64,000 nt of DNA from Desulfurispora thermophila DSM 16022. Its GTDB lineage: Bacteria > Bacillota > Desulfotomaculia > Desulfotomaculales > Desulfurisporaceae. Location of the stretch: contig NZ_AQWN01000012.1 in the NCBI RefSeq assembly GCF_000376385.1, positions 1-64,000 on the forward strand, read 5' to 3'. The notes below the pieces were generated by a model. It ran no database searches, was not told the origin of the DNA, and saw nothing but the letters and a program-made list of their open reading frames with translations. A program made the translations under genes and the position numbers. Positions 20,812 through 38,253 of the stretch are shown one piece after another. Numbering within the stretch: position 1 is the stretch's first letter; every line of letters begins with the position of its first letter.

Positions 20812-20822
20812 AACACCCTGGC

Positions 20823-20846: not shown

Positions 20847-20851
20847 AAAAC

Positions 20852-20877
20852 TATCCCCGGAGCAACTGCTCCGGGGA
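20852..20877. terminator. Bidirectional intrinsic terminator
   Basis: A strong GC-rich hairpin (CCCCGGAGCA pairing with TGCTCCGGGG) with T tracts on both strands, between mazF (plus) and the cold-shock gene (minus). It was probably the original rsmG terminator. Confidence 0.85.
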
Positions 20878-20902
20878 TGGCTTTTTCGGTTACCTGGCAG
20901 GT

Positions 20903-21106
20903 TTAAAGAATGCGCACATTGGCCGCCTGCGGGCCGCGGTTGCCGCTGACCACGTCAAACTGCACCGCTTGCCCTTCTTCCAGAGTCTTGAAGCCGTCAC
21001 CCTGGATGGCCGAGAAGTGCACGAAAACGTCGTGACCGTCATTGCTCTCGATAAAACCGTAACCTTTTTCCGCGCTGAACCATTTTACTTTTCCTTGCAT
21101 GTTCAA
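20903..21106 (-). CDS. Cold-shock domain protein
   Basis: The 67-residue protein contains the RNP1-like KGYGFIE and RNP2-like VFVHFS motifs of the CspA family, and begins MQGKVKWFS (after an extra MN). These proteins bind single-stranded nucleic acid and melt mRNA structure. The untranslated leader from its promoter (21227-21254) is about 110 nt, as is common for cold-shock genes, and may mediate temperature control. It converges on mazF. Confidence 0.96.
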
Positions 21107-21226
21107 TGCCCCCCGTTAGTTTTTTTGATTAAAAAGCGGATCACCTAACAGTATACCTTTAAACCGAACCTGCTAATCAGGGGGCGCAAGATATCCTGGC
21201 ATTTCCTTCTTTTTAATACTCATCCA

Positions 21227-21254
21227 AGTATAGCACACCTGGCCGAAAAAGCAA
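21227..21254 (-). promoter_or_regulatory. Putative promoter of the cold-shock gene
   Basis: On the minus strand TTGCTT (21249-21254), a 16-nt spacer and TATACT (21227-21232). It gives a leader of about 110 nt. Confidence 0.55.
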
Positions 21255-21355
21255 GGGCAAAAGGAAAATAATTATGAGATTGTGATCATAAGAGAGTATT
21301 GGTAGTATTGTAAATATAGAATATGATAATAATATTACTATCAGGAGGTGGCAAC

Positions 21356-21646
21356 ATGTATATCAAGCCATCGGCCAGTATTCGGCAAAATTATAATGAA
21401 ATAGCCCATCTGTGCAAATCCACCGGTGAACCTGTATATCTAACCAAAAATGGTGAGGGCGACCTGGTGGTCATGGATATAGAAGCCTTTGTGCGCCGGG
21501 AAAAGATGCTGCAGCTGCGGGAAGAACTGCTGGCGGTGGAAGAAGAACGTCTGGCGGGACGCCAGGGGGTTACTCTGGATCAGTTGAATGATTATCTGGA
21601 ACAAATTATTACAGAGGCAGGAAAGGAAGAAGATGGGCAAATATGA
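21356..21646 (+). CDS. Phd/YefM-family antitoxin
   Basis: This 96-residue protein has an N-terminal Phd/YefM fold (MYIKPSASIRQNYNEIAHLC, PVYLTKNGEGDLVVMDIEAF) and a charged C-terminal helix that would wrap a partner toxin. ATG at 21356 with AGGAGG at 21343-21348 is clearly the start, rather than the longer frame from 21323. It overlaps the RelE/ParE gene by 14 bp. The family typically neutralises the toxin and autoregulates. Confidence 0.88.
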   Translation: MYIKPSASIRQNYNEIAHLCKSTGEPVYLTKNGEGDLVVMDIEAFVRREKMLQLREELLAVEEERLAGRQGVTLDQLNDYLEQIITEAGKEEDGQI

Positions 21647-21941
21647 GGTTATTGTCTCGGAGCGCGCCCGCCGCATGCTGGCAGGCCATTTACAACTTCT
21701 GGCCTGGAAAAGCCCTGCTGCCGCCCGTACATTAAAAGATCAATTGATAGATGCCATGCAGTCCTTGAGTACAATGCCGGAACGTTATCCTTTTCTGGAA
21801 GCGAAATATATTCCCCCCAATAAATATCACAAAATGGTGGTGCAAAAAAGATATCTGGTTTTGTATCAGATTAAGGACCGGGTGGTTTACGTTGACTTAA
21901 TAATAGACTGCAGACAGGACTACCAGTGGTTGCTGAAATAA
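21633..21941 (+). CDS. RelE/ParE-family toxin
   Basis: The 102 residues begin MGKYEVIVSERARRML and include a MVVQKRYLVLYQIKDRVVYVDLIIDCRQDY strand-rich core typical of RelE/ParE toxins. I cannot tell a ribosome-dependent nuclease from a gyrase poison by sequence alone. The ATG at 21633 follows GGAAGAAG and overlaps the antitoxin gene. Its stop directly abuts the stop of a degraded minus-strand gene. Confidence 0.85.
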   Translation: MGKYEVIVSERARRMLAGHLQLLAWKSPAAARTLKDQLIDAMQSLSTMPERYPFLEAKYIPPNKYHKMVVQKRYLVLYQIKDRVVYVDLIIDCRQDYQWLLK

Positions 21942-22324: not shown

Positions 22325-22566
22325 GGTTTCTCCCCATCCTGTGGTAAAGGCTTGAACAGTCCCGGTTGCTTCTACCAGAAAAAACTCATTCCTGGTGCAT
22401 TGGGGGACTTTTGGTCATCATATGCCGGATGGGGGAAAAGGGTGCTGGTTGTTCCGGACAGAGCATAACAATCAAAAGTGCGGCCATTTACTGCGGGAAA
22501 AGAAGGAAAGAATGTTCGGATGTAGAAATAAGCACCAGTATAAAATGTCGCAAGGAGCCTGTCAAA
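22325..22566 (+). other. Upstream region of the phosphorothioation island
   Basis: No convincing gene. A TATAAA at about 22540 could be a -10 element, with a weak -35 about 18 nt upstream. AAGGAG at 22552-22557 is the ribosome site for the DUF4007 gene. A frame open from 22366 is in phase with that gene, but its residues do not resemble the family. Confidence 0.4.
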
Positions 22567-23496
22567 ATGCATTCAGCGGTTTTATACCCCGAGGAATACC
22601 TGGCCCAGGGCAACATGGGCCGGCACGAAACCTTTACCCCGCGTTACGGCTGGCTGGTCAAGGGCTGCCGGGCCGTGCAGGAGGACCCGCATATCTTCCG
22701 GGCCCCCGACGCCATCGAACACCTGGGGGTGGGCAAAAACATGGTGGTCGCCATACGCTTCTGGTGCCTGTGCTGTAAACTGATTCAGCCGGGCAGCGGC
22801 GGCGCCTGCCAGCTCACAGAGCTGGCGCAAAAGCTATTCACCGGTCCCGCCGCCTACGACCCCTACCTGGAGGACGAGGGTACCCTCTGGCTGCTGCACT
22901 GGCAGATCTTCCTGCCCCGGCTGGAAGCCGTAAGCTGGCCCCTGGCCTTTAACAAATGTCAGTTAACCAGTTTTGATACCAGGCAGCTGGCCTGGATGCT
23001 GTATCAGGCCGGACAAAAATATGAACGCTGGCAGGGAATATCCCCCACCACCTGGGAGCGCGACGCTTCCTGCCTGCTGCGCATGTACGCCGATGACCGG
23101 GCGGCCGGAGATATCGACTGCCCCTTCACCCGGCTGGGCCTGCTCCAGCGGGTGCCGGGAAGCAACCAGTTTGCCTTTCACACCGGGGAAAAACCCGGCC
23201 TGCCCCCGCTCATCTTTGCCGCGGCCTGCTTTTCCTACATGCAGCACTACAGCGGGCAGGGCGTGCGCACTATCACCCTGCAAAAACTGAGCTACGACTT
23301 CAACTCCCCCGGTGTGGTCTTTAAAATACCCGAGAGTGCGGCCGGCAGTCTGCTGGAACAGGCTGCAGAGATGATGCCCCTGTTCTCCCTGGAACATGTG
23401 GCCGGAAATGTCCAGTTACACCTGCGGGAAAAGAATCTCACACCTGAACACCTCTACTGGTTGGCTTTAGAAGAATATTACAAGGAGTCAATCTGA
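22567..23496 (+). CDS. sspB: DUF4007 protein, SspB-like
   Basis: The 309-residue protein shows the DUF4007 layout: HETFTPRYGWLVKG (about residues 20-33), LGVGKNMVVAIRFWCL (about 53-68), LTELAQKLF, then YDPYLEDEGTLWLLHW and the PLAFNK strand. In the SspABCD system the DUF4007 protein SspB is reported as the nickase that prepares DNA for single-strand sulfur incorporation. The start at ATG 22567 is set by AAGGAG nine bases upstream and by where similarity begins. The SspC-like gene follows with no gap (TGA then ATG). The assignment rests on the family pattern plus its neighbours. Confidence 0.78.
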   Translation: MHSAVLYPEEYLAQGNMGRHETFTPRYGWLVKGCRAVQEDPHIFRAPDAIEHLGVGKNMVVAIRFWCLCCKLIQPGSGGACQLTELAQKLFTGPAAYDPYLEDEGTLWLLHWQIFLPRLEAVSWPLAFNKCQLTSFDTRQLAWMLYQAGQKYERWQGISPTTWERDASCLLRMYADDRAAGDIDCPFTRLGLLQRVPGSNQFAFHTGEKPGLPPLIFAAACFSYMQHYSGQGVRTITLQKLSYDFNSPGVVFKIPESAAGSLLEQAAEMMPLFSLEHVAGNVQLHLREKNLTPEHLYWLALEEYYKESI

Positions 23497-26400
23497 ATGT
23501 CGCAGAATGTAGATTTGCTCAGCCAATACATTCATCCCGGAGGGGCGGCAACCCGTTCCGTGCACATAGAGCGGGACAGAGATGCTTTCACTTTGCTGCA
23601 AAACTACCAGCCGGGTCCGGCCGGCGCGCAGGTGATCGGCCGCCTGGCCACTGCCCTGCAGGGAGAAAAAATAAGCGCCTGGTCGCTCACCGGTCCCTAC
23701 GGCATGGGCAAATCTGCCCTGCTGAGCTTTTTGCTGGCTCTCTGTGGCCCTGCGGCCAGCAAATCCAGCCGCCTGGCCTGGCAGCGGCTGCGGGCGGTGT
23801 GTCCGGCCCTGGCGGAGCAGTTGCAACTGGGTCTAGAAAACGCTGCCGGACGGGGCGGCCTTTACACCATAGCTGTTACCGCTGGCTATGAACCTTTGAG
23901 CGCTACCCTGCAACGGGGTTTGCAGCAGGCGCATACTGACCGACAAACTACCGCCGCACCGGCCGCTTTGCTGGAAAACTACCGGCAGTTGCCAGAGCGG
24001 GCCGGTCGCCCCCTTTTGCTGGTGATCGACGAATTTGGTAAAAACCTGGAATACCTTTCCTACCATCCGGATCGGGGTGACCTTTTTATTCTGCAGCAAC
24101 TGGCCGAAAGCCCCGGTATATATGTAATAGTTTGCCTGCACCAGGCTTTTGAAGAATACGCCGCCGCTCTTTCCACCGCCCAGCGACGGGAGTGGGCCAA
24201 AATTCAGGGCCGCTTTGAGGACATTTCCTTTGTGGAAAACAATGATCATTTACTCCTGCTCATGCGCCGCGCCCTGCAGAAAAACCTGCCGCCACTGCTG
24301 GCAGATAGAGTGCGGCAGTGGGCCCGCCGGGCGGCCGAACAGGCCCGCCGTTTTGCTTCTCACCTGCCCGCTTTGCAGGACGAGGATATTTTATACCAGC
24401 TTTATCCTTTGCAGCCCCTGACAGCACTGGCCCTGGCCGAGCTGTGCCGCCGTCTGGCCCAGTACAGCCGCACCCTTTTTTCCTTTTTGGGCAGCGGACA
24501 CCAGCTGGCCCTGCCCGCCATATTGAGCCGCCTGATCCTGCCCGCCGCCGGGCCGCTACCCGCCCTGGGGCTGGATGCGCTCTACGACTATTTTATCGGC
24601 AGCACCTCCCTGCCCTATCTGGACCGGCCAGAAGCCCGGCGCTGGCTGGAAATTCAAGATATGATCGACAGTGCTGGCGACCTGCCTCCCCTGGAGCAAA
24701 CCCTGCTGAAAACCATTGGCCTGCTCAATTTGTTGGGCGGTGGTGCCGTTTGTCCGGCCAGTCCTGAGGCCATTATATCCCTGGTGGAACTATCCGGTCA
24801 GGCTGATGCAGGTCAAACAATGGAAGCACTGCAAAAGTTGACCGCTGAGGGCAAGCTGCTTTATCGCCGCTATGCCGGGGAATATCGTCTCTGGGAAGGT
24901 AGCGATTTCGATATTGCCAGTGCCCTGCGCCAGCAAAAGGAGAGTCTGGCTCTGCAGCCCCTGGAGCAAATATTGAACCAGTACCTACCCCTTTCGCCCC
25001 TGGTGGCTGCCCGCCATGCTCTGGAAAAGGGCACTGTGCGCTCATTTGAGCGGCGCTGGGTGGATGTGGAGAACGTAAATGAAGAGCTGGTCCCGGCCAG
25101 AGGATACGACGGTCTGTTGCTGTACTGCTACGGCCTGGCCGTAGATCCACCCGCGGTGCCCGCCCGCTGCCGGGATGGAAGGCCCCTGCTGGTGGCCTAT
25201 GCCCCGGTGAAGAATGCTTTGAAGGAAAAGGCATTGGAGATCAGCGCCCTGAAGGTACTGCTGGCGGAACGGGAAGAGCTGGCCCATGATGCGGTGGCCC
25301 GGCGGGAAGTAAAATATCGCCTGCAGGTTGCGGAAACCGCTTTTCGCACTCTGGTTACCAGGGTTTACGCTCCGGGTTCGCCCCATGTACAATGGCTGAG
25401 CGACGGTCAGCCGGTGACCCTGCACAGCAGCCGGGAACTGGGCCGGGAGCTTTCCCGCCTTTGCGATGAGGTTTACAAAAGTTGTCCGCACATTAAAAAC
25501 GAGATGATCAATTACGACAAGCTGTCCAGCGCTGTGGCCAGGGCCCGCCGCGAACTGTTGGAAGCCATGGCCGAAAAAGCTGAACAGGAAAACCTGGGCC
25601 TTGGGGGCTTTGGCCCCGAGGTGGCCCTGTACCGTTCGTTGCTACTTTGCACTGGCCTGCATATTCGGCAGCCGTCCCAGGAGCAATGGGTACTGGTTTT
25701 GCCCGGTACAGACCCCAGCCTTTACCCTCTGTGGCAGGAGCTGGACCGCCTGCTGGCTGCTGCGCCGGAGGGAATCAATGCAGCGGCTGTGCTGGAGCAG
25801 TTGCATGAGCCACCCTTCGGTCTGCGCCAGGGACCGGCTGCGGTTTTGCTAGGTCATTATTTATTGGTAAAGGCCGATGAAATTGCTGTTTTTCAGGAGA
25901 AAATCTACCAGCCATATCTCAGCGGGGCGACCCTCTCTTTGCTCAGCAAAAGGCCCGATTTGTTCCTGCTGAAAAAAATTGCTGTGAGCGATCTGCAGCG
26001 CAGCGTTTTTGCCGCCTACCGGAATATGCTGCAAAAGGCCAGCATTGCCGGTGCCCGGGGATTGCGCAATCAGTCCCTGCTCACAGTGGTGACGCCGCTG
26101 GTGCAATTCGCCCGGGGGCTTTCCGGTTATGCCCGCCAGACCCGGCAGGTTTCCCCCGCTGCCCGGCGGGTGCTGCTGGCCCTGCAAAATGCCACCGACC
26201 CGCTGGATTTGCTCTTTCAGGAATTGCCCGCCGCGCTGCACATTGACCTGACAGACGGCAGCGCGGAAACAACAGCCGCACTGCAACAGCGACTGCTGGC
26301 GGCTCTGCAGGAACTGGCCCGGGCTGATGAAATATTGCAACAAAAAGTGCAGGATCTGCTCTTGCAAACCTGGCCGGCAAAAAATTTGCAGCAGCTTTAT

Positions 26401-26844
26401 GATATAATGAAGGAAAAAGCTGCCGGTCTGGTGGATTTTTGCCGCGATCCGGAACTAAAACCTTTGCTGGTGGCCATGCTCCGGACGGCGGAAACTCCGG
26501 AAATATGGGCCCGGGGTATTGCCGGCGCTGTGCTGAAAAAGCCTCTGGACAGCTGGCAGGATAGTGATTTGCTGCTCTTTGCCGAAATGCTGCCCAACCT
26601 GGCGGCACGGCTGGAGGAACTGGAACTGCTGCGGGCCGGAGCCCGGGCCGGTAGTTCCCAACAGGTATTGCTCACCTTAAGTACTCCTACCGGTAAGCGG
26701 CACCGGTTTGTTTCCGCCGGCGAAACGATGGATGGCGATGTCCGGCACCGGGTGGCCGAAATAATGGCTCTGCCGCCGGAAAAGGCCCGGGCCGTGCTGC
26801 TGGCTCTGGCCGAGCAGATCATGCAAACAGAAAGTGGTGATTGA
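23497..26844 (+). CDS. sspC: Large P-loop ATPase, SspC-like
   Basis: The 1115-residue ATPase has Walker A GPYGMGKS at 66-73 and a Walker B-like LLLVIDEFGKNLEYLS (about 173-188). A long helical C-terminal half (about 550-1115) has no motif I can name. Its place between SspB- and SspD-like genes matches SspC, the ATPase of the single-strand phosphorothioation machinery. It also resembles BREX-type BrxC/PglY ATPases in size and motif spacing, but BREX partners are absent. The sspB stop abuts its ATG, and its 3' end overlaps sspD. The last gene of the island shares its DEFG-x-x-LE signature. Confidence 0.68.
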   Translation: MSQNVDLLSQYIHPGGAATRSVHIERDRDAFTLLQNYQPGPAGAQVIGRLATALQGEKISAWSLTGPYGMGKSALLSFLLALCGPAASKSSRLAWQRLRAVCPALAEQLQLGLENAAGRGGLYTIAVTAGYEPLSATLQRGLQQAHTDRQTTAAPAALLENYRQLPERAGRPLLLVIDEFGKNLEYLSYHPDRGDLFILQQLAESPGIYVIVCLHQAFEEYAAALSTAQRREWAKIQGRFEDISFVENNDHLLLLMRRALQKNLPPLLADRVRQWARRAAEQARRFASHLPALQDEDILYQLYPLQPLTALALAELCRRLAQYSRTLFSFLGSGHQLALPAILSRLILPAAGPLPALGLDALYDYFIGSTSLPYLDRPEARRWLEIQDMIDSAGDLPPLEQTLLKTIGLLNLLGGGAVCPASPEAIISLVELSGQADAGQTMEALQKLTAEGKLLYRRYAGEYRLWEGSDFDIASALRQQKESLALQPLEQILNQYLPLSPLVAARHALEKGTVRSFERRWVDVENVNEELVPARGYDGLLLYCYGLAVDPPAVPARCRDGRPLLVAYAPVKNALKEKALEISALKVLLAEREELAHDAVARREVKYRLQVAETAFRTLVTRVYAPGSPHVQWLSDGQPVTLHSSRELGRELSRLCDEVYKSCPHIKNEMINYDKLSSAVARARRELLEAMAEKAEQENLGLGGFGPEVALYRSLLLCTGLHIRQPSQEQWVLVLPGTDPSLYPLWQELDRLLAAAPEGINAAAVLEQLHEPPFGLRQGPAAVLLGHYLLVKADEIAVFQEKIYQPYLSGATLSLLSKRPDLFLLKKIAVSDLQRSVFAAYRNMLQKASIAGARGLRNQSLLTVVTPLVQFARGLSGYARQTRQVSPAARRVLLALQNATDPLDLLFQELPAALHIDLTDGSAETTAALQQRLLAALQELARADEILQQKVQDLLLQTWPAKNLQQLYDIMKEKAAGLVDFCRDPELKPLLVAMLRTAETPEIWARGIAGAVLKKPLDSWQDSDLLLFAEMLPNLAARLEELELLRAGARAGSSQQVLLTLSTPTGKRHRFVSAGETMDGDVRHRVAEIMALPPEKARAVLLALAEQIMQTESGD

Positions 26845-27682
26845 GTTGTCGAAAAACCCTCCCCGCACCCGCCATATCCTGGCCCTTTCCGGGGGCAAAG
26901 ACAGCGCGGCCCTGGCCGTGTATATGCGGGAAAAATATCCCCATCTGCCCCTGGAGTATGTTTTTACCGACAGCGGTTGTGAACTGCCCGAGACCTACGA
27001 GTATCTGGATCGCATCCGGGCCGTGCTGAATATTGAGATTACTGTGATCAGGCCGGAGAAAAGCTGGGAAAACTACTGGTCGCTGGTTAAGGTAAAAAAG
27101 ACACCGGCTGGTGTTTTCCCTTATCTGCCTTCTCCCAAACAGCGCTGGTGTACTGAGGTTTTGAAATTAATTCCTTATGAAAAGTGGATAGAGAGTAGTT
27201 ATCCTGGTTGTACTATTGTTAGTTACGTAGGATTACGTGCAGATGAAAAAAGAGAAAGAAAAGGCTTAATTTCGGGCAATAAGAATATTGTTACTCATTT
27301 CCCTTTTATAGAGGATGGCTTAACGTATGAAGATATAAGTTGCTTACTAGAAAAATCAGGGCTTGGCTTCCCTGCTTACTATAAATGGAGAAAGCGTTCC
27401 GGCTGCTACTTTTGTTTTTACCAAACCAAGCGGGAATGGCTGGGGCTTTATGAACATCATCCCGAGCTTTTTTTTAAAGCTATGAGTTATGAAACAGTAA
27501 TACCTGAAGCCGGGGTACGTTTTACATGGTGTGATGATATGAGTTTGAATGAACTGTTGAAAAGAAGGGACGAGATAATGAATCAACCTCTTGCCGGTGA
27601 TATTGAATTAAGGCCAGTAGAAAGGCTCTCCTGTATTTTAGATGGTGTTTTGGTGGAAAGAGGGGCATTACAATGGGCATAG
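26834..27682 (+). CDS. sspD: PAPS-reductase-like PP-loop protein, SspD/DndC-like
   Basis: This member of the phosphoadenosine-phosphosulfate-reductase/ATP-pyrophosphatase family has 282 residues. The PP-loop SGGKDS is at 19-24, followed by FTDSGCELPET (44-54), RWCTEVLK (104-111), YVGLRADEKR (131-140) and a C-terminal SGCYFCFYQTKREW (189-202). Cys106, Cys191 and Cys194 could bind metal or an Fe-S cluster, as in DndC. In Ssp and Dnd systems this protein activates the DNA backbone for sulfur incorporation. A GTG at 26834 is the likely start. From about 27150 the base composition becomes clearly AT-rich and stays so into the next gene. Confidence 0.8.
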   Translation: MVIELSKNPPRTRHILALSGGKDSAALAVYMREKYPHLPLEYVFTDSGCELPETYEYLDRIRAVLNIEITVIRPEKSWENYWSLVKVKKTPAGVFPYLPSPKQRWCTEVLKLIPYEKWIESSYPGCTIVSYVGLRADEKRERKGLISGNKNIVTHFPFIEDGLTYEDISCLLEKSGLGFPAYYKWRKRSGCYFCFYQTKREWLGLYEHHPELFFKAMSYETVIPEAGVRFTWCDDMSLNELLKRRDEIMNQPLAGDIELRPVERLSCILDGVLVERGALQWA

Positions 27683-30174
27683 ATGATTTTTTAACAGAAA
27701 TGGACATGCAATTAAAAAGGGGTAGTTTTAAGCCGCACAAGCTGATATTGATATTAGCCGTGCTGGACTTACTTAAGGAAAACCCGGTCAATAAAATTTA
27801 CTATGATGAAAGATTAAGACAAAGATTTACTTTTTATTTCCAAATATTCGCTGATGAAGGTGATCGAAATAGGCCATACAATCCCTTTTTTCACTTGCAA
27901 AATGATAGATTCTGGAAGATAGTTCCAATAAAAGGACGAGAAGGCCATTTTGCAGCAATGAAGAAAATTGGAGGGCCTGGTGAGCTGATCCAGAATGTTT
28001 CCTACGCATACTTAGATGAACCAGTATTATGGGAATTTTTGGACCCTGACAGGGCGGAAATAATTAGAAGCAAAGTAATTAGTATCTTGATGAAATATAA
28101 GGAGAAATGCTTAGCTAACAAAAAAACTGATGTGCCATTAAGTAGCAATCAGGATGATATTACCTCTAACAATACTTACAAATCGACTCCGCTTTTTGAC
28201 ACCCCGCTTATGACAGAATTCCCTCACATAATAACATCGCCTTCCCATCAGGCTGCACAATCAATCCATTCACAAAACAATATCCCTCATGATCTTGACA
28301 TCCTATCACTTCCAGCATACGAACAAAGCTTTTACAGCCAGTGGGAAACCAGCACTTCCGGCCTGCCCGGTCAGCCCGCAGCCATTATGGCGGAAAGGGA
28401 CGGTGAATTTATGCGCAATGAATTTGTGGATTATTTGAATACCCTGAGCAATACTACAGCGGCCAATGAAAATGCCCTGGCAGAAAGCCAGCTGAACAGC
28501 CGCTTTTTTTCCCGGGTACGGGTAGTGCATCCTCTGGAAAGTTTTATAACTGAACAACTGATGAATGGCTGTGGCCGGGTGGTGCTAACCGGTCATGCCG
28601 GCGATGGCAAAACCACCCTGGCCTTTGCCGTGTTGCAAAAGCTGGGCCTGACGGTGCGGCAACTGAAGTGGAGGCAGGAGTTTCCCGCACAGCGCCTGGT
28701 GGTAATCAAGGATATGAGTGAACTGCCGGTGGAACAGCGGGGCCAGGTGATGCAGGAACTCTGGCAGGAAGAGGAGTGGCGCTATCTGGTGGTATCCAAT
28801 ACCGGTACACTGCTGGAGGCGGTAGGCTGGCTGGAAAAAAATCTGCCGCAATATGGTTTAAAGAAGAAATTGCTGGATGGTCTGCTGGCGGATGGGCCGT
28901 ATAGGCTGGCCGAACGAATAATGATCATCAATGCCGGGAGTATCATCAATATTGATCCGGCCCTGGAAGTATTAAAACGCATGCTGGAGCCGCAAAACTG
29001 GTTTGATTGCCAGCAGTGCATCCATGGTCAGCACTGTCCTGTTTTCTACAATGTACGGCTTTTGCAGCAGGGCTGGGACACGGTGAGGCAGCGCCTCTGG
29101 CTGCTTTACCGCCATCTGTATGAATACGGCTGTCGGTTGACCATGCGCCAGATGGTGGCCCATCTGGCCTATGCCCTGACCGGCGGTACCGATTGTCGGC
29201 AGGTAGCGGGGATGGTGCTAAATTCGCACCGGGCAGCTTTGCGGGGGAGGCTTTTTTTCAACCGCTTTTTTGGGGACGACGGCCAAAAGGAGGATGGTGC
29301 GGCCGGCCAGCTGTACGCGGTGCGCCGGCTGAGGCAGGCCGGTTACGGACAGATTCTGCAGCCGGCCCTGGAACAGCGCCTCTGGCTTACCGAAGACCGG
29401 AGCTGGACCGATTATCCCCTGGCGGATGAACTGGGCCGGGAGATTGTAGATACCTGTACAAAAAGCTACAACAGCCGGGAAAAAGCTGCCCTGCGGCGGC
29501 AGATGCGCCGCCTGCTGTATTTCTGGGGCACCCGCTGGGAGGAAGCAGGTGGCGAAGGGGAGCGGGCGGCGGAGGATTTTATCGCTAAATTTCTGGATTC
29601 GCCGGCCTTGTTTGATTATCTGCAGATGATGTCCGAAAAATCCGATCATTACCGGGAGAAAATCCGGGAATATAAGAGAAAAGTGGGACATGTGCTCCAG
29701 GAGTATTTCGCCGGTTCCTGCCTGGCGGAAAATGAAAAGCGGGAAGATATATACATTCCTTTGAGCCGGCCGGACCGGCCGGTGCCGGTGCTCTTTTTGC
29801 TGGCCCGCTATTTTCTGGATGATTTTGACCTGGAACTGCGGAAAACCTTTGAGGTGGGAAAATATAAGCGACGGGCTCTTTTCCTTTTTCTTAAAGATAA
29901 GCCGGAATTATGCCTGGAACTCAGTTTACCCTTTATGGATTATGTGGCCCGCCGGCACCGTGGAGAGATGACGGCCGATTTAAGTGCTTTTTATGCCAAC
30001 CGCCTGCAGCGCTTCAAGGCCCAGTTGATCAAGCATTATCCTCATCTGCAGCGCTGGGAGCTGTTTAGCGATGATGGCCGGAAAGGCAGTCTGATGTACC
30101 TGAAGGCCGGGCGAAGCAGGCGAATTAAACTGGAATTTTATGCCGGTGAACTGGAGGTGTCTTTCTATGAATGA
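27673..30174 (+). CDS. Putative phosphorothioate-sensing ATPase (SBD-like domain + DptF/SspF-like P-loop)
   Basis: The 833-residue protein appears to have three parts. Residues 1-145 resemble the sulfur-binding domain of the phosphorothioate-dependent nuclease ScoMcrA: KPHKLILILAVLDLL (20-34), a charged helix with FTFYF, then PYNPFFHLQNDRFW (68-81). Residues 150-240 form a Ser/Thr/Asn/Gln-rich linker. The rest is an ATPase with Walker A GHAGDGKTT (307-315) and a possible metal site CQQCIHGQHC (446-455), a layout recalling DptF. ATG at 27673 overlaps sspD by 10 bp. I infer a restriction-module ATPase that reads backbone sulfur; the domain match is by eye and needs a profile search. Confidence 0.6.
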   Translation: MGIDDFLTEMDMQLKRGSFKPHKLILILAVLDLLKENPVNKIYYDERLRQRFTFYFQIFADEGDRNRPYNPFFHLQNDRFWKIVPIKGREGHFAAMKKIGGPGELIQNVSYAYLDEPVLWEFLDPDRAEIIRSKVISILMKYKEKCLANKKTDVPLSSNQDDITSNNTYKSTPLFDTPLMTEFPHIITSPSHQAAQSIHSQNNIPHDLDILSLPAYEQSFYSQWETSTSGLPGQPAAIMAERDGEFMRNEFVDYLNTLSNTTAANENALAESQLNSRFFSRVRVVHPLESFITEQLMNGCGRVVLTGHAGDGKTTLAFAVLQKLGLTVRQLKWRQEFPAQRLVVIKDMSELPVEQRGQVMQELWQEEEWRYLVVSNTGTLLEAVGWLEKNLPQYGLKKKLLDGLLADGPYRLAERIMIINAGSIINIDPALEVLKRMLEPQNWFDCQQCIHGQHCPVFYNVRLLQQGWDTVRQRLWLLYRHLYEYGCRLTMRQMVAHLAYALTGGTDCRQVAGMVLNSHRAALRGRLFFNRFFGDDGQKEDGAAGQLYAVRRLRQAGYGQILQPALEQRLWLTEDRSWTDYPLADELGREIVDTCTKSYNSREKAALRRQMRRLLYFWGTRWEEAGGEGERAAEDFIAKFLDSPALFDYLQMMSEKSDHYREKIREYKRKVGHVLQEYFAGSCLAENEKREDIYIPLSRPDRPVPVLFLLARYFLDDFDLELRKTFEVGKYKRRALFLFLKDKPELCLELSLPFMDYVARRHRGEMTADLSAFYANRLQRFKAQLIKHYPHLQRWELFSDDGRKGSLMYLKAGRSRRIKLEFYAGELEVSFYE

Positions 30175-31891
30175 GCTGCCGCCCCTTTTTCCCCGGCAGC
30201 TGCCTCTCAAACGTATGGACCGGCGAGACTGGAAAGAGAATAAAAACCCGGCCATGCGCCTTTTTGGCAAACGGTTTTTTGTGGATCAGCGGGCCATGGA
30301 GTTGCTGGTCGAGTTTTTGGGTGTGCTGCTGACCCGGGAAAAATGGATTGGCCGTGCTGAAAGGCCGGCCCACAGGCAGGATTGGGCGCAGAAAAGCGTG
30401 CTGCCTCCCCTGCCCGTTTTGCGCAGCTGGCCGGAAAACCAGGCGCTTTGCTACCGCCTGCCGGTACATCTAAATGTGAAGCTGCTGGCCTTTTTCCGGC
30501 GCACCCCGCCGGACAAGCAGCATGCAGTGCATGAACAGCAGTATATCCGGCTGCGGCAGGAACTGAAGGAAAGGCTGGGCTCCCGGGACCGTGTGGGAAC
30601 GGCCCGGGCGGACGTGCTGGAGCAGTTGCTGGCCGGGCTGCAGGGATCGGGTGCCGGACGCCTCTGGTCGGCCCGTACCTTTTACCCCCTGGCGCCGGCT
30701 TTGCTTATGCAAGAGACCATTTTTAATATTACAAAAACCAAATCCAAAGAAAAAAAGGATGGGGAATTGAGCTGGGAAGATACCATTGAAAAATTAAATG
30801 AATATTACAGTGTTTCCAAACACCGTTTCCTGGCCCGGGGTGGTGAGGTGCTGTATTTGCAGCTGTGCAATCTTTTTCGCACTTCCCCGGAGGAGTTTGG
30901 TGCCTGGCTGGGCCGCTGGCAGGATGTGCTGGAGGTGCGGCCCGAGGAGGCTGATCTGGAGCAGTTGCACTCCGGCCTGAACCGCTACCTGCCGGAACTG
31001 GCCGGGGGCGCGCTGGGCCGGCTGCTGCAGCATCTGGTGGATTATATCGAGAACCTGGACCCCGAAACCAGGCAGAAAGTGGCGGAAAAGGTGGGTACAC
31101 TGGAATGTGAGTACTGTGCGGCCGACACCTGGCCGGAAACCTACCTGTTTGCAGTGGAGCTGTACCGTTTGCTGCAGGCTGATCTGGATCCGGTGCAGCG
31201 TCTGGATATGCTCATGCTGCTTTGCGCGCTGCAGGTGCTGCGGACCATCTGTGCCCAGAGTGCCCGTTACGGGGGCAGGGGAGAAAGGCCCGCTCCGGAA
31301 AATCCGCTGGGTTACACCTGGCTCTTTACGCCCGGCCGGGCTTCTCCCGCCCTGCGCCTGGCGGCGGCCGGTCATCTGGAAGTGCTGCAGACCATGATCT
31401 ATACTGCACTGCGCCATCCGGCACTGGAAAGTTATGTTCAGAGGGCGGTGCAGGAACTGAAAGGCGGCGCCGGTGCAAAGACCTTGAAAAAAGAAGCGGG
31501 CAAACTGTGGAAGGAAGCCGATGATAAGTACGGTTACAAGCTGCTGCTTTCCCTGGGCAAGCAGGTGGGCATCATTGCTCCCCGCACCGGTCGGGGAGCC
31601 CGCTTTGTGCTGGAGGAAAGGCTGCTGCGCCTGCTGGTGCTCACGGTCTTGCCCCCCGGGCACAGCTGTACCTATCCCGAGTTTTTGCAGCGGGTTTATG
31701 CTCATTACGGCATCGCTCTGGAGGGAGTGCAGTTGCGGGAGGCCCTGCGCTTTGCGGGCCGGTTTGCCGGTACCGATTTTATCCTGCCGGAGAGAGAATG
31801 GCCCGTTGCCATGCTGCGGGCGGCCGGTTTTCTGGTGGAACTGTCCGATGCTTTTTCGCTGGTGAAAAACACCTTTGGTTCAACTAGCTGA
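30167..31891 (+). CDS. Restriction-module protein of unknown fold (DptG/SspG position)
   Basis: This 574-residue soluble protein has no motif I can name. It is leucine- and arginine-rich, mostly helical by composition, with a basic N-terminal third (MNELPPLFPRQLPLKRMDRR) and a Lys/Glu-rich segment around residue 190 (TKSKEKKDGELSWED). ATG at 30167 with GGAGG eight to nine bases upstream is preferred over 30140. It overlaps the preceding gene by 8 bp and precedes the HerA-like ATPase by 16 bp. Synteny with DptF-DptG-DptH suggests the G subunit; sequence alone does not prove it. Confidence 0.55.
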   Translation: MNELPPLFPRQLPLKRMDRRDWKENKNPAMRLFGKRFFVDQRAMELLVEFLGVLLTREKWIGRAERPAHRQDWAQKSVLPPLPVLRSWPENQALCYRLPVHLNVKLLAFFRRTPPDKQHAVHEQQYIRLRQELKERLGSRDRVGTARADVLEQLLAGLQGSGAGRLWSARTFYPLAPALLMQETIFNITKTKSKEKKDGELSWEDTIEKLNEYYSVSKHRFLARGGEVLYLQLCNLFRTSPEEFGAWLGRWQDVLEVRPEEADLEQLHSGLNRYLPELAGGALGRLLQHLVDYIENLDPETRQKVAEKVGTLECEYCAADTWPETYLFAVELYRLLQADLDPVQRLDMLMLLCALQVLRTICAQSARYGGRGERPAPENPLGYTWLFTPGRASPALRLAAAGHLEVLQTMIYTALRHPALESYVQRAVQELKGGAGAKTLKKEAGKLWKEADDKYGYKLLLSLGKQVGIIAPRTGRGARFVLEERLLRLLVLTVLPPGHSCTYPEFLQRVYAHYGIALEGVQLREALRFAGRFAGTDFILPEREWPVAMLRAAGFLVELSDAFSLVKNTFGSTS

Positions 31892-31907
31892 TAAAGGAGC
31901 GTTCGGC

Positions 31908-34900
31908 ATGTATTTTTTGTTGAACACGGTTTTGGACTGGCTGCAAAGACAGCTGGATGCATTGACCGGGGAACAGCAAAAACTGGTTGTCGTGCTGCCC
32001 TCCTGGGATAGCGGTTTGCTGCTGGCTCTGGGCCAGCGGCTGCGCGAGCTGGTGGCCGGCTGGCCCCTTCCCATACAACTCCGGTACAGTGTGGCCTATC
32101 GGCTGGGGCAGGAATGGCGGCAAAAGGGTTCTTTGGCGCAGCAGCAGGATCTGGCGGAGATCAGGCGGCAGGGCTGGTACAATGAGGATGACAACCTGAC
32201 CGGGCAGCGCAATCAGCTGCCGGAAGACCGGCCGCTGCTGGTTGTGCTGGCCGGGGCGGAGCACATTCCCGACCGGCACAGCCTGCAGGATTTTTATCAT
32301 TTGGATCAACCGGCGCTCTGGCGGGAAGCGCTGGCCGGCAGTACCCGGGCCTGGGTGGCGGAAAAATTTGCCCGGGCTTTGGGCCAGGAGACAGCCGACG
32401 GTGTAGAACTGGCCAGCGCCGTGCTGGATTACCTCTACGAGCGCGGGCTGGCCGATTTACCGGCCATCAGTGTTTTTCTGGAAAACCTGGACCTGCAGCC
32501 GGCAGACAGCGGACAGATCGCCTGCCGGCTGCTGCTGGGCAGTTTGCCCGCTCTGGGTCAGCCGGCGCTATCCGGACTGGTGCTAAAAAAGATTTCCCGT
32601 TCAGCTAAAGGTGGCCCGAAGGCCTTCTGGCGCGGGAAATGTGCGGGTTACCTGCAGCAGGCCCAGCAGTTTTTCAGCTACCGGTCCTTTCTGTCCCCTG
32701 CCGACCGGGAGAAGTATTTAGAAATTATTCAGAAGCTGCTTGATCATGATGCCGCGCTGGAGCGGCTGGAAAGCCGGGAATGGCGGCTGGGAGTTTACCG
32801 GACGGCGGAGGAACTGCTGCGGGCGGTAGAGCAATACATTGCCCAGCCTGCGCCGGCCCTGGCCGATGCGCTGCGCCGGGTCGACTTTGTGCTGATCAGC
32901 GATGAGATCTTGAATTATAAGCCCAAAAAGACAGATATGGAACCGCCGGATACGGATCCGCCCCCCTCCCGGGGGCCGGTCCGCCTGGAAGGACTGCTGC
33001 CCGAGGTGTTTTTGCGGGCCATCTGGCTGACCGCCTGTGAGATGAAGAAAGAATGGAAAGGTGTGCGGCTGGAGGATGTTGCCCGGATCAGGCTGCAGAG
33101 CGAGGTTTTTAAGCATGATTTCGTACCGCTGCAGGACGAGGAGGCGGAAGGAGCCGATGAGCGGGCGCAAGAGTTTTTACAGCACCTGCTGGGCGGTATA
33201 GATGGCTGGCTGGCCTACGGCCTGCAGCTGGGCACGAGTGACCAGGAACTGGGAGTGGAAATAAATCTGTGCCCGGCCGGCCGGGCGGCGGAAGAGCTAA
33301 CCTATGTATACAGCGGGGCGTCCATCCCCCGCCTGGAGTTTTATTGTGCTTTTGTTCACCGGGATGGCGAAACGCTGCAGCGGAAATTTTACTGGCCTCT
33401 GCCGGACCATCATCCCTGCCGCTTGCTGGAGGCTCTGTTAAAGTGGGCATATGAGTATTACCAGGATAGAGCCAGCGGGCTGCCCCTGTTTTATTTGTCC
33501 GGAGTGAACAGCCTGGTGGGAGTGCGCCAGGACGAGGAGGCCTGCCGGTTGCTGCTGCGCTTTTTGCAGGGCGATCCGGAGCAAAAGCGGATAGTGGATC
33601 TGCTGGAGTTTACCGCGCAGCCGGGGGGTGAACAACCCGGGAAAGCTCTAAAAGAGTTGGCTTTTTATTACCAGCAGTTTATCAAGGCTACTTATGAACG
33701 GGGGCTGTTTTCTGCCCTGGACGTGCGCAGGCATAGTGAGATGGAATACAACAACATGGCCGGGGCCTATCTGCAGTCTTTGGAGCAATGTCTGCAAAGT
33801 GTCGGTACAGCAGGCAAAGAGGCGATGTTGTTACTGTACAAGGCCTTTTTAGTGGTGGACAGTTCTCTGTACGGTAAACCCGGGTCGGTGTGGGAAAAGG
33901 ATCTGCCGGCGGCGCTGGTTACACCGCTGCATCCGGTGATGCTGGAGATGCTTCACTTTCAGTTCAGCTACCTGCTGGAATGTTTGGTTTATCTGCTGGA
34001 AAAGGGACTGAGCGGCAGCCGGGAGGTGGCTTTTAATGCCGCCAGCTGGCAGCGGCTGGTGGAACTGGCGGCGGTACGACGGGCTCTGGGAGTGGTGATC
34101 AGCGGACAGAAACTGGAGGGTATGGGGCGCGATTTCGCCTATCTGCAGGTGCTGGGTCAGGCCGGTGCGGACGATGGGGAAACCGACAGCCTGGATTTTG
34201 CCGAGGAGGAAATGGATGAGGAAGATGAAGATGACCATCCGGAATATTTGCAGCGGGGTCGGCTGGCCGAACTGGTCAAAGGCATTTTGCTGGACTATCA
34301 GGAGATGCACCCCTATGCTGCCGATGGACTGACACTGGCGGTTTATGCCGGACGTTCCCTGCCCCAGATTCTGGCCGGTGTGGATGAATTTTTGCGGATC
34401 ATGGTGAAGGAGCGGGAAGAGGAGGCGGCAGACTACTATACGTTGCAGCTGATGGTGTATACCAGGGCCCACAGTGAGTGGACGGTGCGGCGCTGGCTAA
34501 GGGCCTGGCAGCAGAGCTGGCAGCAGGGCGATGTCGGAGGAGAAGGTGCTCACTGGAGCCACTGCCGTTTGACCGTGCAGTACCGGATGGTAGAAGATAA
34601 AAAGTTTATAGACCTGGAGGGCATGTTAAGAGATAACCGCTGCGATCTGATCTTTTTAAGTGAATTTTTTATGGACAGTGAAAGCGAGTTTTATCCGCTG
34701 GAGCAAGATTTTTCCCGTTTGACGGAAAATTACCGCTATTTCCCGGTGCTGGAAAAGGTGTGCTGTCGCAACCGGGGTGCCGGGAGTGAATACAAGCGGC
34801 AGCGGGTGTTGACCAATCACCGCTTTCGCAGGGCTACCGCCCATGCCCGGCTGGTGCACCGGCTGCAAAATCCGGTTAGTCCGCACGGGCAGGTTTTGCT

Positions 34901-37343
34901 TCTGGAAACGCGTGGTGTGGGAGATTTTCAAAAGGTGTTGCGTGCCGCTCACGCCAGCGGTGTGTGGGTGGTGTGTATTGATCCGGCTATGGACGAATAT
35001 GTGATTACTTCTCTGGAGGATGATGGTAAAAAAAGTCCGGATATTATCGGTTTTGGCACCGGGGTGGGCTCCCACGGTGAGGCCAATTTCACCATTTCCA
35101 CCAGCCTCTTTAAATTGTCCGGTGTGCAGGACAGGATTGCCCGCTGGGTGCGCAAGCTGTTTCCCGGCCAGTTAACCGAAAGCCAGGCCGGGGAAATAGC
35201 CCGGGCTTTTTGCCGGCGCGATCCGGATCAGCGACCGTATTTAAGCGGCCTGTCGCTGATCAAGTCTACCGGACCGGAAAGGTTTTTCCACGAATTTGTG
35301 GCCGGAAGCATGGTACGCCTTATGCTCCAGCAGCAGGCGGAGGAAGATAGTTTTTGTGATGTACTGGTTTCCCTGGATGCTTTTCCCCACTGGTTCAAGC
35401 GGGATGAGCAGCGCCCCGATTTTCTGCACCTGAAAGCTGCTCTGGTCGGCGGCCGGGTGCGGGTGCAGGCCCGTCTACTGGAGTGCAAACTGGGCAGGGA
35501 AAATGAGGAGCATGTGCAAAAAGCCGGGCAGCAGCTGCGGGCAGGCCTTTGTCAGCTGGCGGAGCGGTTTATGCCCTGCCCGCCGGGGGCTATAGCGGGT
35601 GTGCAGGACAGACCGGACCAGCGTTACTGGTGGCTGCAGTTGCACCGGTTGATTGCCAGCCACGGTGTGAGCGGCGAGCAGTACGACAGGGTACTGGCAG
35701 CCCTGGAACTGCTCAGCGAGGGGTATTTTGATCTGGAGTGGCAGGCGGCGGCCTTTGTTTTCTGGACCGACCGGCCGGGGGATGAGATACAGCGCGAGGT
35801 GCTCTGTGAGGTGGAACTGCCGGGCCAGAATGTGCTGACTGTACCGGTATTTCGGTGTGGCCGGGATTTTATCCAGCGCCTTTGTTTGCGCAATGACCAG
35901 CCGGTGGAGCTGCTGGATTGGCCGGTTTGCCGGTATGTTGGCCGCGAGCTGCCGGCTATAGCGGGAGCGGCTGCTGAAACACCGGCAGATCCCCCTGTTC
36001 TGGAAGATGACGGGGGAAGCGTTTCGCCGGTTTCGGAAGAGGAAGTGCCAGAAACAATATCTCCGGTGCCTTGCGGGGCTGACGAAACGTGGCAGCGGCG
36101 GTGTCTGCCGGATTTGTTGACTGCCCAAACACAAGTGGCGACAGCGGCGGAAGCATTAATCGAGGGCGATGCTGCGGTTCGGTCGGTTGAGGAATGTCAA
36201 CCTGTGCCGCAGCGTATATTGCTGGGGTATGGTGCGGGTGAGCGCCCGGTGTACTGGGAGTTCGGTCACCCGGATTTGCCCAACCGGCACCTGTTGATTT
36301 TCGGCGCTTCGGGTACGGGCAAGACTTATGCCATCCAGTGTTTGCTGGCCGAGCTGGGCCGGCACGGCGCAAACAGCTTGATTGTGGATTACACCAGCGG
36401 CTTTACCAGCGGGCAGCTGAACCCGCTGTTTGTCCAGCATTTTGCGCCCCGCCAGCATGTGGTGCGCCAGCAGCCGCTGGGGATCAACCCATTCCGGCGG
36501 CAGAGGTACGTGGAGGAAGGTATTGAACTGATTGATAATCCAGCTCAGGTGGCCGGGCGGTTGGCGGGCCTGCTGGGCAAGGTTTACCATCTGGGGGAAC
36601 AACAGTATGCAACGCTGTACAATATCATCCAGGAAGGGGTACAGCAGGCCGGAGACGGCTTTACCCTGCCCGGCCTGCTGGAAAAACTGCGGGAGTACAG
36701 TGAAGCCGGGGGACATAATGCCAGCCAGGCTCTTTCGGTTTTTAATAAGATCCGCCCCTTTGTGGATATGAATCCATTGGGGCCGGGGCGCAGCGGCTGG
36801 GAAGAATTGTTCACCGACCGGCAAAACCGCTGTCATGTGATCCAGTTGATCGGCTTTGAAGCCCAGATGGCCCAGTTGATCACCGAATTTGTGCTGCTGG
36901 ATCTGTACTGGTATTACCGTTCCTGCGGCAGTGAAGCCCGGCCCCGCCCGGTGGTGCTGGATGAGGTGCAGAACCTGGACCACAGCGAGGGCGGGTCGCT
37001 TTCCAATATGCTGCGGGAGGGGCGCAAGTTTGGCCTTTCCCTGCTTTTGGCTACCCAGACGCTGAGTAATTTGAAGCAGGAGGAACGCGACCGCCTCTTC
37101 CAGGCCGCCCACAAGCTGTTCTTCCGCCCGGCCGATACCGAGCTGCGTTCCTTTGCCAGCATTATCGCCCAGGCTACCGGCGGGCAGGTGGAAGACTGGG
37201 TGCAGCGGCTGGCCAGCCTGGGTCGGGGTGAGTGCTATTCGCTGGGCTACGCCCGACGAGAAGGCGATGATAAGCTAAGGGCCAATTACTGTGTCAAGAT
37301 CAAAGTGACCTCGCTGAAAAAGCGCCTGACAGGAGAGGATTAA
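31908..37343 (+). CDS. Giant HerA/FtsK-like ATPase, DptH/SspH-like
   Basis: The 1811-residue protein has a large N-terminal region (1 to about 1400) without recognisable motifs. It includes an acidic stretch (EEEMDEEDEDDHPE) near residue 765. The C-terminal HerA-type translocase domain has Walker A FGASGTGKTYAIQ near 1465 and Walker B RPVVLDEVQNLD near 1680. LLLATQTLSNL near 1705 is followed by a terminal arginine-rich segment. Size and C-terminal ATPase match DptH/DndH of phosphorothioation-dependent restriction. The start at 31908 follows AAAGGAG; an ORF from 31875 overlaps the previous gene. The next gene begins one base after its stop. Confidence 0.7.
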   Translation: MYFLLNTVLDWLQRQLDALTGEQQKLVVVLPSWDSGLLLALGQRLRELVAGWPLPIQLRYSVAYRLGQEWRQKGSLAQQQDLAEIRRQGWYNEDDNLTGQRNQLPEDRPLLVVLAGAEHIPDRHSLQDFYHLDQPALWREALAGSTRAWVAEKFARALGQETADGVELASAVLDYLYERGLADLPAISVFLENLDLQPADSGQIACRLLLGSLPALGQPALSGLVLKKISRSAKGGPKAFWRGKCAGYLQQAQQFFSYRSFLSPADREKYLEIIQKLLDHDAALERLESREWRLGVYRTAEELLRAVEQYIAQPAPALADALRRVDFVLISDEILNYKPKKTDMEPPDTDPPPSRGPVRLEGLLPEVFLRAIWLTACEMKKEWKGVRLEDVARIRLQSEVFKHDFVPLQDEEAEGADERAQEFLQHLLGGIDGWLAYGLQLGTSDQELGVEINLCPAGRAAEELTYVYSGASIPRLEFYCAFVHRDGETLQRKFYWPLPDHHPCRLLEALLKWAYEYYQDRASGLPLFYLSGVNSLVGVRQDEEACRLLLRFLQGDPEQKRIVDLLEFTAQPGGEQPGKALKELAFYYQQFIKATYERGLFSALDVRRHSEMEYNNMAGAYLQSLEQCLQSVGTAGKEAMLLLYKAFLVVDSSLYGKPGSVWEKDLPAALVTPLHPVMLEMLHFQFSYLLECLVYLLEKGLSGSREVAFNAASWQRLVELAAVRRALGVVISGQKLEGMGRDFAYLQVLGQAGADDGETDSLDFAEEEMDEEDEDDHPEYLQRGRLAELVKGILLDYQEMHPYAADGLTLAVYAGRSLPQILAGVDEFLRIMVKEREEEAADYYTLQLMVYTRAHSEWTVRRWLRAWQQSWQQGDVGGEGAHWSHCRLTVQYRMVEDKKFIDLEGMLRDNRCDLIFLSEFFMDSESEFYPLEQDFSRLTENYRYFPVLEKVCCRNRGAGSEYKRQRVLTNHRFRRATAHARLVHRLQNPVSPHGQVLLLETRGVGDFQKVLRAAHASGVWVVCIDPAMDEYVITSLEDDGKKSPDIIGFGTGVGSHGEANFTISTSLFKLSGVQDRIARWVRKLFPGQLTESQAGEIARAFCRRDPDQRPYLSGLSLIKSTGPERFFHEFVAGSMVRLMLQQQAEEDSFCDVLVSLDAFPHWFKRDEQRPDFLHLKAALVGGRVRVQARLLECKLGRENEEHVQKAGQQLRAGLCQLAERFMPCPPGAIAGVQDRPDQRYWWLQLHRLIASHGVSGEQYDRVLAALELLSEGYFDLEWQAAAFVFWTDRPGDEIQREVLCEVELPGQNVLTVPVFRCGRDFIQRLCLRNDQPVELLDWPVCRYVGRELPAIAGAAAETPADPPVLEDDGGSVSPVSEEEVPETISPVPCGADETWQRRCLPDLLTAQTQVATAAEALIEGDAAVRSVEECQPVPQRILLGYGAGERPVYWEFGHPDLPNRHLLIFGASGTGKTYAIQCLLAELGRHGANSLIVDYTSGFTSGQLNPLFVQHFAPRQHVVRQQPLGINPFRRQRYVEEGIELIDNPAQVAGRLAGLLGKVYHLGEQQYATLYNIIQEGVQQAGDGFTLPGLLEKLREYSEAGGHNASQALSVFNKIRPFVDMNPLGPGRSGWEELFTDRQNRCHVIQLIGFEAQMAQLITEFVLLDLYWYYRSCGSEARPRPVVLDEVQNLDHSEGGSLSNMLREGRKFGLSLLLATQTLSNLKQEERDRLFQAAHKLFFRPADTELRSFASIIAQATGGQVEDWVQRLASLGRGECYSLGYARREGDDKLRANYCVKIKVTSLKKRLTGED

Positions 37344-37344
37344 G

Positions 37345-38178
37345 GTGAGTGAGCTTTTGCCCATCAATTTTCATAAAACTTTCCTGCCCGAGCGGCGCCT
37401 GCTGGGTGCTTTGCTGGAATACGCCGCTCTGGGCAGGGAGGGCAATTACCAGGAGATAGCCAGGGACACCGGCATACCCATGGGCAAATCTTCGGGCAAG
37501 GTACCGGCCATGCTTGATTATGCCCGCGGCATGGGACTGATCACGCTGGTCCGGGGCGGCGGGCCGGGTCGCAAAAGGCCCCGGCTGACCGGCTTCGGGC
37601 AGGTGGTATACGCTGCGGATCGCTATCTGGGACGTCCCTTTAGCCAGTGGCTGGCGCACATGCACCTGTGTTTGCCCCGGGGGGGAGCGGTGGCCTGGCA
37701 TCTGGTGTTTGTGACCGGGCGCCGGGCGCTGGGCAGCCGTTTTGCGGCTGACCGGGTGGAGCATTATCTGGTGGAACACTTTGGGCCGGGGCGCAGCCGC
37801 ACCGGCCCGCTCCTGCGCACATACCTGGAAGATGCTGCGCTGGGCCGGGCGGGGGTGCTGGTTAGGCAGCAGGATGAGCTGACGCGCCGCCGGGCGCCCC
37901 TGGAAGAGCCTTATGCTCTGCCCTATGCCGCCTTTATTCTGGAGCTGTGGGAGAAATTTTTCCCCGGTCGGGAACAGATTACGGCGGATGAACTGGCAGG
38001 AGAAACCGGCTGGCCGGAGATGTGTTTGTGGTCCCGGGAGGAGCTGGAACAGGCCCTGGAACTGGTGGAACAGACCGGATTTTTTACTCTGGACCGGCAG
38101 CGGCGGCCCTGGATTCTGGAAAGGCGGGCGGTGGCTGCCGATGCCTGGCAGGAGCTGGGCCGGGCCTGGGAGGAATAG
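37345..38178 (+). CDS. Second, divergent DUF4007/SspB-like protein
   Basis: The 277 residues parallel the first DUF4007 protein block by block. FHKTFLPERRLL matches HETFTPRYGWL, GKSSGKVPAMLDYARGMGLI matches GKNMVVAIRFWCLCCKLI, and LTGFGQVVYAADRYLG matches LTELAQKLF...YLED. FSQWLAHMHLCLP and AVAWHLVFV match the LLHW and WPLAFN segments. Identity is low, so this is a distant paralogue recognised by motif order. The start is GTG at 37345 behind AGGAGAGG, one base after the HerA-like gene. It may be a nicking or DNA-recognition partner for the ATPase that follows, mirroring the sspB-sspC pair. Confidence 0.6.
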   Translation: MSELLPINFHKTFLPERRLLGALLEYAALGREGNYQEIARDTGIPMGKSSGKVPAMLDYARGMGLITLVRGGGPGRKRPRLTGFGQVVYAADRYLGRPFSQWLAHMHLCLPRGGAVAWHLVFVTGRRALGSRFAADRVEHYLVEHFGPGRSRTGPLLRTYLEDAALGRAGVLVRQQDELTRRRAPLEEPYALPYAAFILELWEKFFPGREQITADELAGETGWPEMCLWSREELEQALELVEQTGFFTLDRQRRPWILERRAVAADAWQELGRAWEE

Positions 38179-38253
38179 CCCTGCCTCCTGGAGAGAACCA
38201 GAGAAGACAGTCCGACAAGCCCTGGCCGGAGGCTGGAATGAGGAGTGATCGTG

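Follow-up and report, generated by a model that had tools for sequence, protein, structure and literature searches.

We analysed a 64,000-nucleotide stretch of DNA from Desulfurispora thermophila DSM 16022 (contig NZ_AQWN01000012.1, positions 1 to 64,000; hereafter the window), which carries on its + strand an SspBCD-SspFGH phosphorothioate (PT) defence operon, with the writer genes sspB, sspC and sspD and the restriction genes sspF, sspG and sspH all present. Judged by homology, modelled fold and pocket, the N-terminal ~150 residues of its SspF ATPase are a sulfur-binding domain (SBD), and a comparison of related operons showed that sspD (from codon ~75 to its end) and the SBD behave as one exchangeable cassette. 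The best explanation of the whole, which we favour with moderate confidence, is that SspF carries a PT reader that restrains SspFGH, and that this reader forms a writer-reader specificity cassette together with most of SspD. The joint exchange is the larger point and was absent from an earlier reading of the letters of this DNA (the sequence-only reading), which had proposed the SBD.

The predicted sulfur-binding domain of SspF

The sequence-only reading had likened residues 1-145 of SspF to the SBD of ScoMcrA, joined by a flexible Ser/Thr/Asn linker to a P-loop ATPase, and our searches bore out both the likeness and the layout. The parts of the gene are as follows, with the basis of each assignment in brackets.

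27673..30174, + strand: sspF open reading frame (ORF), 833 amino acids (aa), ATG start (ORF call)
27673..28128, + strand: predicted SBD, SspF residues 1-152 (sequence match, AlphaFold2 (AF2) model, structure comparison)
27736..27741, + strand: putative sulfur pocket His22-Lys23, equivalent to ScoMcrA H116 and R117 (alignment A3; mapping from PMC6224610)
27880..27885, + strand: Asn70 (lid and base-contact position, equivalent to ScoMcrA Y164) and Pro71 (putative pocket floor, equivalent to P165) (alignment; mapping from PMC6224610)
27958..27978, + strand: candidate recognition loop, residues 96-102 (MKKIGGP), differing between cassette types (AF2 model; type comparison)
28129..28416, + strand: Ser/Thr/Asn-rich linker, SspF residues 153-248 (~150-248) (sequence)
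28417..30174, + strand: ATPase core, SspF/DndF-type P-loop with Walker A GHAGDGKTT (PADLOC SspF, E 3.3e-38)

The N-terminal region matched PDB 8h0l (SBDHga1), a structure solved with PT-DNA, at an E-value of 8.3e-19 with the single sequence and 2.6e-28 with a 7-sequence profile, well beyond chance. Residues 7-88 matched NCBIfam NF045808 (PT-DNA-binding restriction endonuclease) at E 1.2e-8, a match that spans model positions 7-87 of 284 and lies under the whole-protein cut-off of that model. Structure prediction, which the sequence-only reading had named as a check, yielded an AF2 model (predicted local distance difference test score, pLDDT, 96.8) whose top structural match was again 8h0l (SBDHga, Z 18.4); the SBDs of ScoMcrA (5zmn/5zmo, Z 11.8/11.7) and SprMcrA (7cc9, Z 11.3) also scored above the other winged-helix proteins (Z <=9.4). 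Position 1 of the PADLOC SspF profile aligns at residue 249, so that the first 248 residues are added relative to the profile. In the canonical SspF of E. coli (L123; L and G numbers are our handles for loci and genomes) the SspF profiles cover nearly the whole length, and no SBD match was found.

In ScoMcrA the Rp sulfur is held by H116, R117 (Lys in most homologues), Y164, P165 and A168 (PMC6224610), which by spacing map onto H22, K23, N70, P71 and H74 of the window SBD; the P71-W81 and H22-P71 spacings (10 and 49) equal those of P165-W175 and H116-P165 in ScoMcrA (PMC6224610). The KPHK motif occupies residues 20-23, with LAVLDLL further along the same helix, as the sequence-only reading had described. 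Its Tyr-Pro pocket, placed in the PYNPFFHLQNDRFW block (residues 68-81), stood for the proline, Pro71 corresponding to P165, and failed for the tyrosine: Tyr69 is one residue off, the Y164 position is taken by Asn70, and the lid Tyr is absent. Pocket conservation among homologues, also named there as a check, was then assessed on alignment A3, which comprises 12 SspF-fused SBDs and the SBD-HNH protein of L091; H22, K23 and P71 are invariant in all 13 SBDs, which are 21-62% identical to the window domain. The search pattern itself accounts in part for H74 and W81 being invariant in alignment A2, and their invariance was not used as evidence. On the strength of sequence and model, the SBD of SspF would bind PT-DNA.

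It is very unlikely that the domain is instead a degenerate winged-helix module for DNA binding or protein interaction (SspF-SspD docking, for example) that reads no sulfur and covaries with SspD through contact. Such a module would fit the missing lid Tyr, a protein interface would also yield joint exchange with SspD, and the N-terminal winged helix-turn-helix (wHTH) fusions of DndF are taken as co-effectors by Rakesh et al. (PMC10853773). It fits poorly with three pocket residues that stay invariant at 21-62% overall identity while surface elements vary, and with a top structural match that was solved with PT-DNA; moreover, the lid Tyr is kept in only a subset of SBD homologues and is no strict requirement (PMC6224610).

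Joint exchange of sspD and the SBD

Two Desulfofundulus operons, L011 and L012, are 98% identical in DNA except over ~1.2 kb. Identity between their proteins is 99% for SspB, 98% for SspC, 60% for SspD, 35% for the SBD, 99% for the SspF ATPase, 96% for SspG and 98% for SspH. The edges are sharp, identity standing at ~100% up to sspD codon ~75, dropping abruptly and recovering at sspF codon ~195-200. L012 is continuous with L014 across the swapped block and L011 is not; since only L012 aligns continuously with L014 through it, L011 is the likely recipient. Over all operons, identities of SspD and SBD correlate at 0.80, and those of SBD and ATPase, two parts of one protein, at 0.42.

We defined two cassette types, type I (window, L010, L011, L089, L090 and L091) and type II (L012, L013, L014, L015 and L096). 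The SspD tree and the SBD tree both split the types with support of 99-100, and the trees of SspC, SspB, SspG and the ATPase group L011 with L012, in conflict with them. The approximately unbiased (AU) test rejected the L011+L012 grouping for SspD (p 3e-7) and the SBD (p 3e-79), and rejected the type split for SspC (5e-6), SspB (4e-4) and the ATPase (0.005). In three E. coli operons (few loci were read), SspD is better conserved than SspB and SspC, the opposite of what the swap shows; with SspD the best conserved of the three there, an SspD at 60% within 98% flanks is exceptional.

To locate the cassette in the window we used an unsupervised change-point scan for the most deviant low-GC3 (GC content at third codon positions) segment in sspC-D-F, with no location supplied, yielding the first feature below; the second comes from aligning SspD of the two types.

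27086..28329, + strand: putative swappable cassette of writer and reader, from codon 85 of sspD to codon 219 of sspF (GC3 change-point scan)
27092..27118, + strand: 9-residue SspD insert, residues 87-95, in type I only and absent in type II (alignment)

GC3 is 0.35 within the segment and 0.64 in the rest of sspC-D-F (log-likelihood ratio 60.9). A comparable low-GC3 segment was found in L010, L011, L012, L014, L089 and L096; in L047 it covers essentially the SBD alone, and in L013, L015, L088 and L090 it is blurred or missing. That the low GC is a mere effect of amino-acid composition is weakened as an explanation by the use of GC3.

Within SBD residues 1-150, 15 aligned columns differ fully between the types. 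They include positions 66 and 70, the equivalents of two base-contacting residues of ScoMcrA (D160 and Y164), and positions 96, 99 and 102 in the candidate loop, the probable counterpart of the base-reading loop; the sulfur-pocket residues are constant across both types. SspD hardly differs between types over residues 11-78, and differs at residues 80-84 and 199-245 in addition to the insert, which is absent from all six further SspD proteins compared (three from E. coli and one each from Vibrio, Pannonibacter and Thermomicrobium).

Proposed mechanism

SspFGH damages DNA without PT and is toxic in PT-free cells, a toxicity relieved by sspBCD and not by Dnd-type marks, from which it follows that the mark read is sequence-specific; the available part of the source names no reader (PMC8092258). 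We propose that self DNA would be sulfur-marked by SspB, SspC and SspD, and that the SBD of SspF would use His22, Lys23 and Pro71 to hold the marked linkage and would sense the neighbouring bases with residue 70 and the 96-102 loop. This binding would restrain the SspF ATPase, hence SspG and the HerA-like SspH, and DNA that lacks the mark would come under attack. Recombination would move the SBD and the C-terminal two thirds of SspD as one specificity block, the written and the read motif changing together. The role suggested by the sequence-only reading, an SBD that spares self DNA, would fit the published behaviour of SspFGH (PMC8092258). Joint exchange would be expected if SspD, in its exchanged part, sets the motif and the SBD has to match it, because a mismatch would be self-toxic.

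The mark of SspABCD is a single-stranded PT at 5'-C(PS)CA-3'. We put at about even the chance that the sspD-SBD block is a swappable specificity cassette for a backbone mark, in which the motif written and read by the window's type I form is not CCA.

An SBD that reads PT and thereby activates SspFGH, contact with PT loading the complex on self DNA or stimulating the ATPase before the complex seeks invaders, is unlikely, if worth keeping in view. SspE and DndI are stimulated by PT (PMC11662687), and SBD-HNH enzymes are PT-dependent nucleases (PMC6224610). In a Bacillota metagenome-assembled genome (MAG; G203, locus L019, the same as L091), the gene after sspBCD, where other operons have SBD-SspF, encodes a 290-aa SBD-HNH protein (L019:6641-7513) whose SBD is of type I. 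A PT-dependent nuclease adjoining its own PT writer would be expected to be suicidal unless PT restrains the nuclease. The toxicity of canonical SspFGH in the absence of PT, and its relief by PT (PMC8092258), argue for inhibition, although the canonical form has no SBD and the sign could differ here.

Several points weigh against a restraining reader that moves with its writer as a specificity cassette. The PT mark beside the SBD-HNH protein of L019 might activate and not restrain. Neighbouring genes are co-inherited by linkage alone, and joint exchange is no proof of functional coupling; the distant operons L047 and L088 show no clear joint exchange of SBD and SspD. Rejection of the type split was not significant for SspG in the AU test (p 0.066), and since the type I/II split was named with the identities already in view, the p-values of that test err a little on the optimistic side. 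Discriminating residues are modestly enriched at the mapped base contacts (p about 0.02), and the loop was mapped without superposition.

Some of these points would also suit an SBD that does read self DNA but is exchanged with sspD by ordinary homologous recombination, with no selection on specificity and co-movement arising from adjacency only, which we regard as improbable. The two are neighbours, the edges lie in conserved flanks as homologous recombination predicts, and the coupling is weaker in L047 and L088. It sits less well with a low-GC3 block that has similar edges in several operons, with the exceptional divergence of SspD relative to its conservation in E. coli, and with discriminating SBD positions that lie partly at mapped base contacts.

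Distribution of SBD-SspF fusions and other SBD contexts

Searches by SBD and by ATPase yielded a total of 13 SBD-SspF fusion proteins. They come from the window genome, Desulforamulus putei (L018/G061), two Desulfofundulus genomes (G051 and G077, the latter D. thermosubterraneus DSM 16057, contig L043), genomes G011, G181, G184, G469, G378, G348 and G558, a Desulfovibrionaceae MAG (L047) and a Gallicola MAG (L027). Of the 11 close relatives of SspF in the genomes surveyed, 10 have the SBD fused. The exception, in G244, has no sspD 5' of sspF on its contig, and that genome gave only a distant SspD-like match.

Some fusions are ~750-835 aa long (SBD-ATPase) and others ~1500 aa. In the three of the longer form that were scanned with Pfam (L011, L014 and L043), a NERD nuclease domain and two protein kinase domains lie between SBD and ATPase. 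These SBD-NERD-kinase-kinase-ATPase proteins, with a PglW-like middle (L011:9438-13991, L043:9977-14539 and L014:5173-9681), belong to Desulfofundulus and relatives; sulfur reading, a nuclease fold and protein kinases would thus be united in one chain in the Desulfofundulus-type SspF.

SBD-like sequences were also seen in other settings. In Parabacteroides (L062:7479-10417), a standalone 141-aa SBD-like gene lies ~10 bp or less 3' of the BrxP gene. Bacteriophage exclusion (BREX) type 4 is a PT-type system, and it may also have an SBD reader. Genome G049 (L017:8868-11063) encodes a 731-aa protein with an SBD-like stretch and a part that, by eye, resembles McrB-type AAA+ proteins, followed by a 737-aa gene; this is possibly a sulfur-reading McrBC-type enzyme. 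In Poribacteria (L021, L022 and L028), two SBD proteins of about 315-324 aa each occur in tandem.

Among the viral contigs searched there was no confirmed relative, and on the plasmids searched the matches were annotated HNH endonucleases or a hypothetical protein, with no SBD-SspF recognised. Searching the window's own genome with the SBD (at E 0.001) and with SspD turned up no further copy of either, and hence no sign of a silent alternative cassette.

Gene content of the window

Apart from sspF, the operon and the genes that follow it were assigned as listed.

22564..23496, + strand: sspB (DUF4007), 310 aa (PADLOC SspB, E 2.9e-84)
23497..26844, + strand: sspC, AAA+ ATPase, 1115 aa (PADLOC SspC, E given as 0)
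26834..27682, + strand: sspD, PAPS-reductase-like sulfurtransferase (writer), 282 aa (PADLOC SspD, E 7.8e-89; PAPS_reduct)
30140..31891, + strand: sspG, 583 aa (PADLOC SspG, E 7.4e-15)
31875..37343, + strand: sspH, 1822 aa, with a HerA/FtsK-type ATPase (PADLOC DndH/SspH; DUF87, residues 1470-1674)
37345..38178, + strand: second DUF4007 protein (Pfam DUF4007; similar gene 3' of sspH in L110 and L089)
38245..42585, + strand: SspC/BrxC-like ATPase, 1446 aa (PADLOC SspC, 7.2e-21)

The HerA-like effector that the sequence-only reading had expected is thus present as SspH. The profile matches of SspG and SspH are moderate, and SspH is scored higher by DndH profiles. The role of SspA may be filled by a housekeeping IscS. 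After sspH, the pair of DUF4007 protein and SspC/BrxC-like ATPase (37345-42585) is seen again in L110:1-2841, and a similar DUF4007 gene in L089:3-494 runs off the end of the stretch read; the pair could belong to the operon as a second module. By eye, small toxin-antitoxin-like ORFs (MazF-like and PHD/RelE-like) lie just 5' of the defence operon at 20464-21941, and a 415-aa ORF at 47849-49096 on the - strand is IS200/IS605-type TnpB-like (zinc-finger CPVCG...C).

Comparison with known systems

The open-access literature that we searched held no report of an SspF SBD reader or a writer-reader cassette, none on how SspFGH-type complexes tell marked self from phage DNA, and none on the SspBCD subunit that determines the motif. 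The latter two questions could both be approached directly in this clade, with a covalently attached putative reader whose pocket is known and mutable and a natural pair of operons, 98% identical, that differ only in sspD-SBD.

The window operon resembles the SspABCD-SspFGH system of Vibrio anguillarum FF-93 (PMC8092258) in SspB, SspC, SspD, SspF, SspG and SspH, in the SspF ATPase core and in the HerA/FtsK-like SspH. It differs in that sspF lies directly 3' of sspD on the same strand and SspD has the 9-aa insert; canonical SspF has no SBD (checked in one E. coli example), whereas the window SspF is fused to its predicted reader. With the SBDs of ScoMcrA, SprMcrA and SBDHga the window SBD shares the fold, the pocket His, Lys/Arg and Pro, and their spacing. 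ScoMcrA and SprMcrA, however, are type IV restriction endonucleases, and here the SBD sits on an SspF ATPase beside writer genes, with Asn in place of the lid Tyr.

The sequence-only reading knew of no earlier description of such a fusion, which holds for its role as a reader and not for the architecture. A 2024 survey (Rakesh, Aravind and Krishnan, PMC10853773) lists DndF proteins whose N terminus is fused to wHTH, NERD and kinase domains, and the DndF wHTH-NERD-kinase-kinase form is probably the same architecture as the ~1500-aa SspF. The survey equates SBD with wHTH elsewhere, reads the fusions in its DndF section as co-effectors and not as a PT reader, and proposes DndG and SspB as DNA recognition parts; its available part describes no writer-reader exchange. 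What is new relative to the survey is the block exchange of sspD and SBD, the wHTH-type fusions on DndF being already listed. SspE and DndI are also PT-sensing effectors paired with PT writers, but they sense PT via a DUF262 hydrophobic pocket and not an SBD (PMC11662687).

The closest parallel in behaviour, though not in homology, is HsdS exchange in type I restriction-modification, in which recombination swaps the recognition part and so alters modification and restriction at once. There a single subunit, HsdS, is shared, whereas here the writer and reader parts lie in two proteins with contiguous coding parts, and the mark is on the DNA backbone. If our reading is true, the cassette would be the backbone-modification counterpart of specificity exchange in restriction-modification and a source of PT readers with differing sequence preference.

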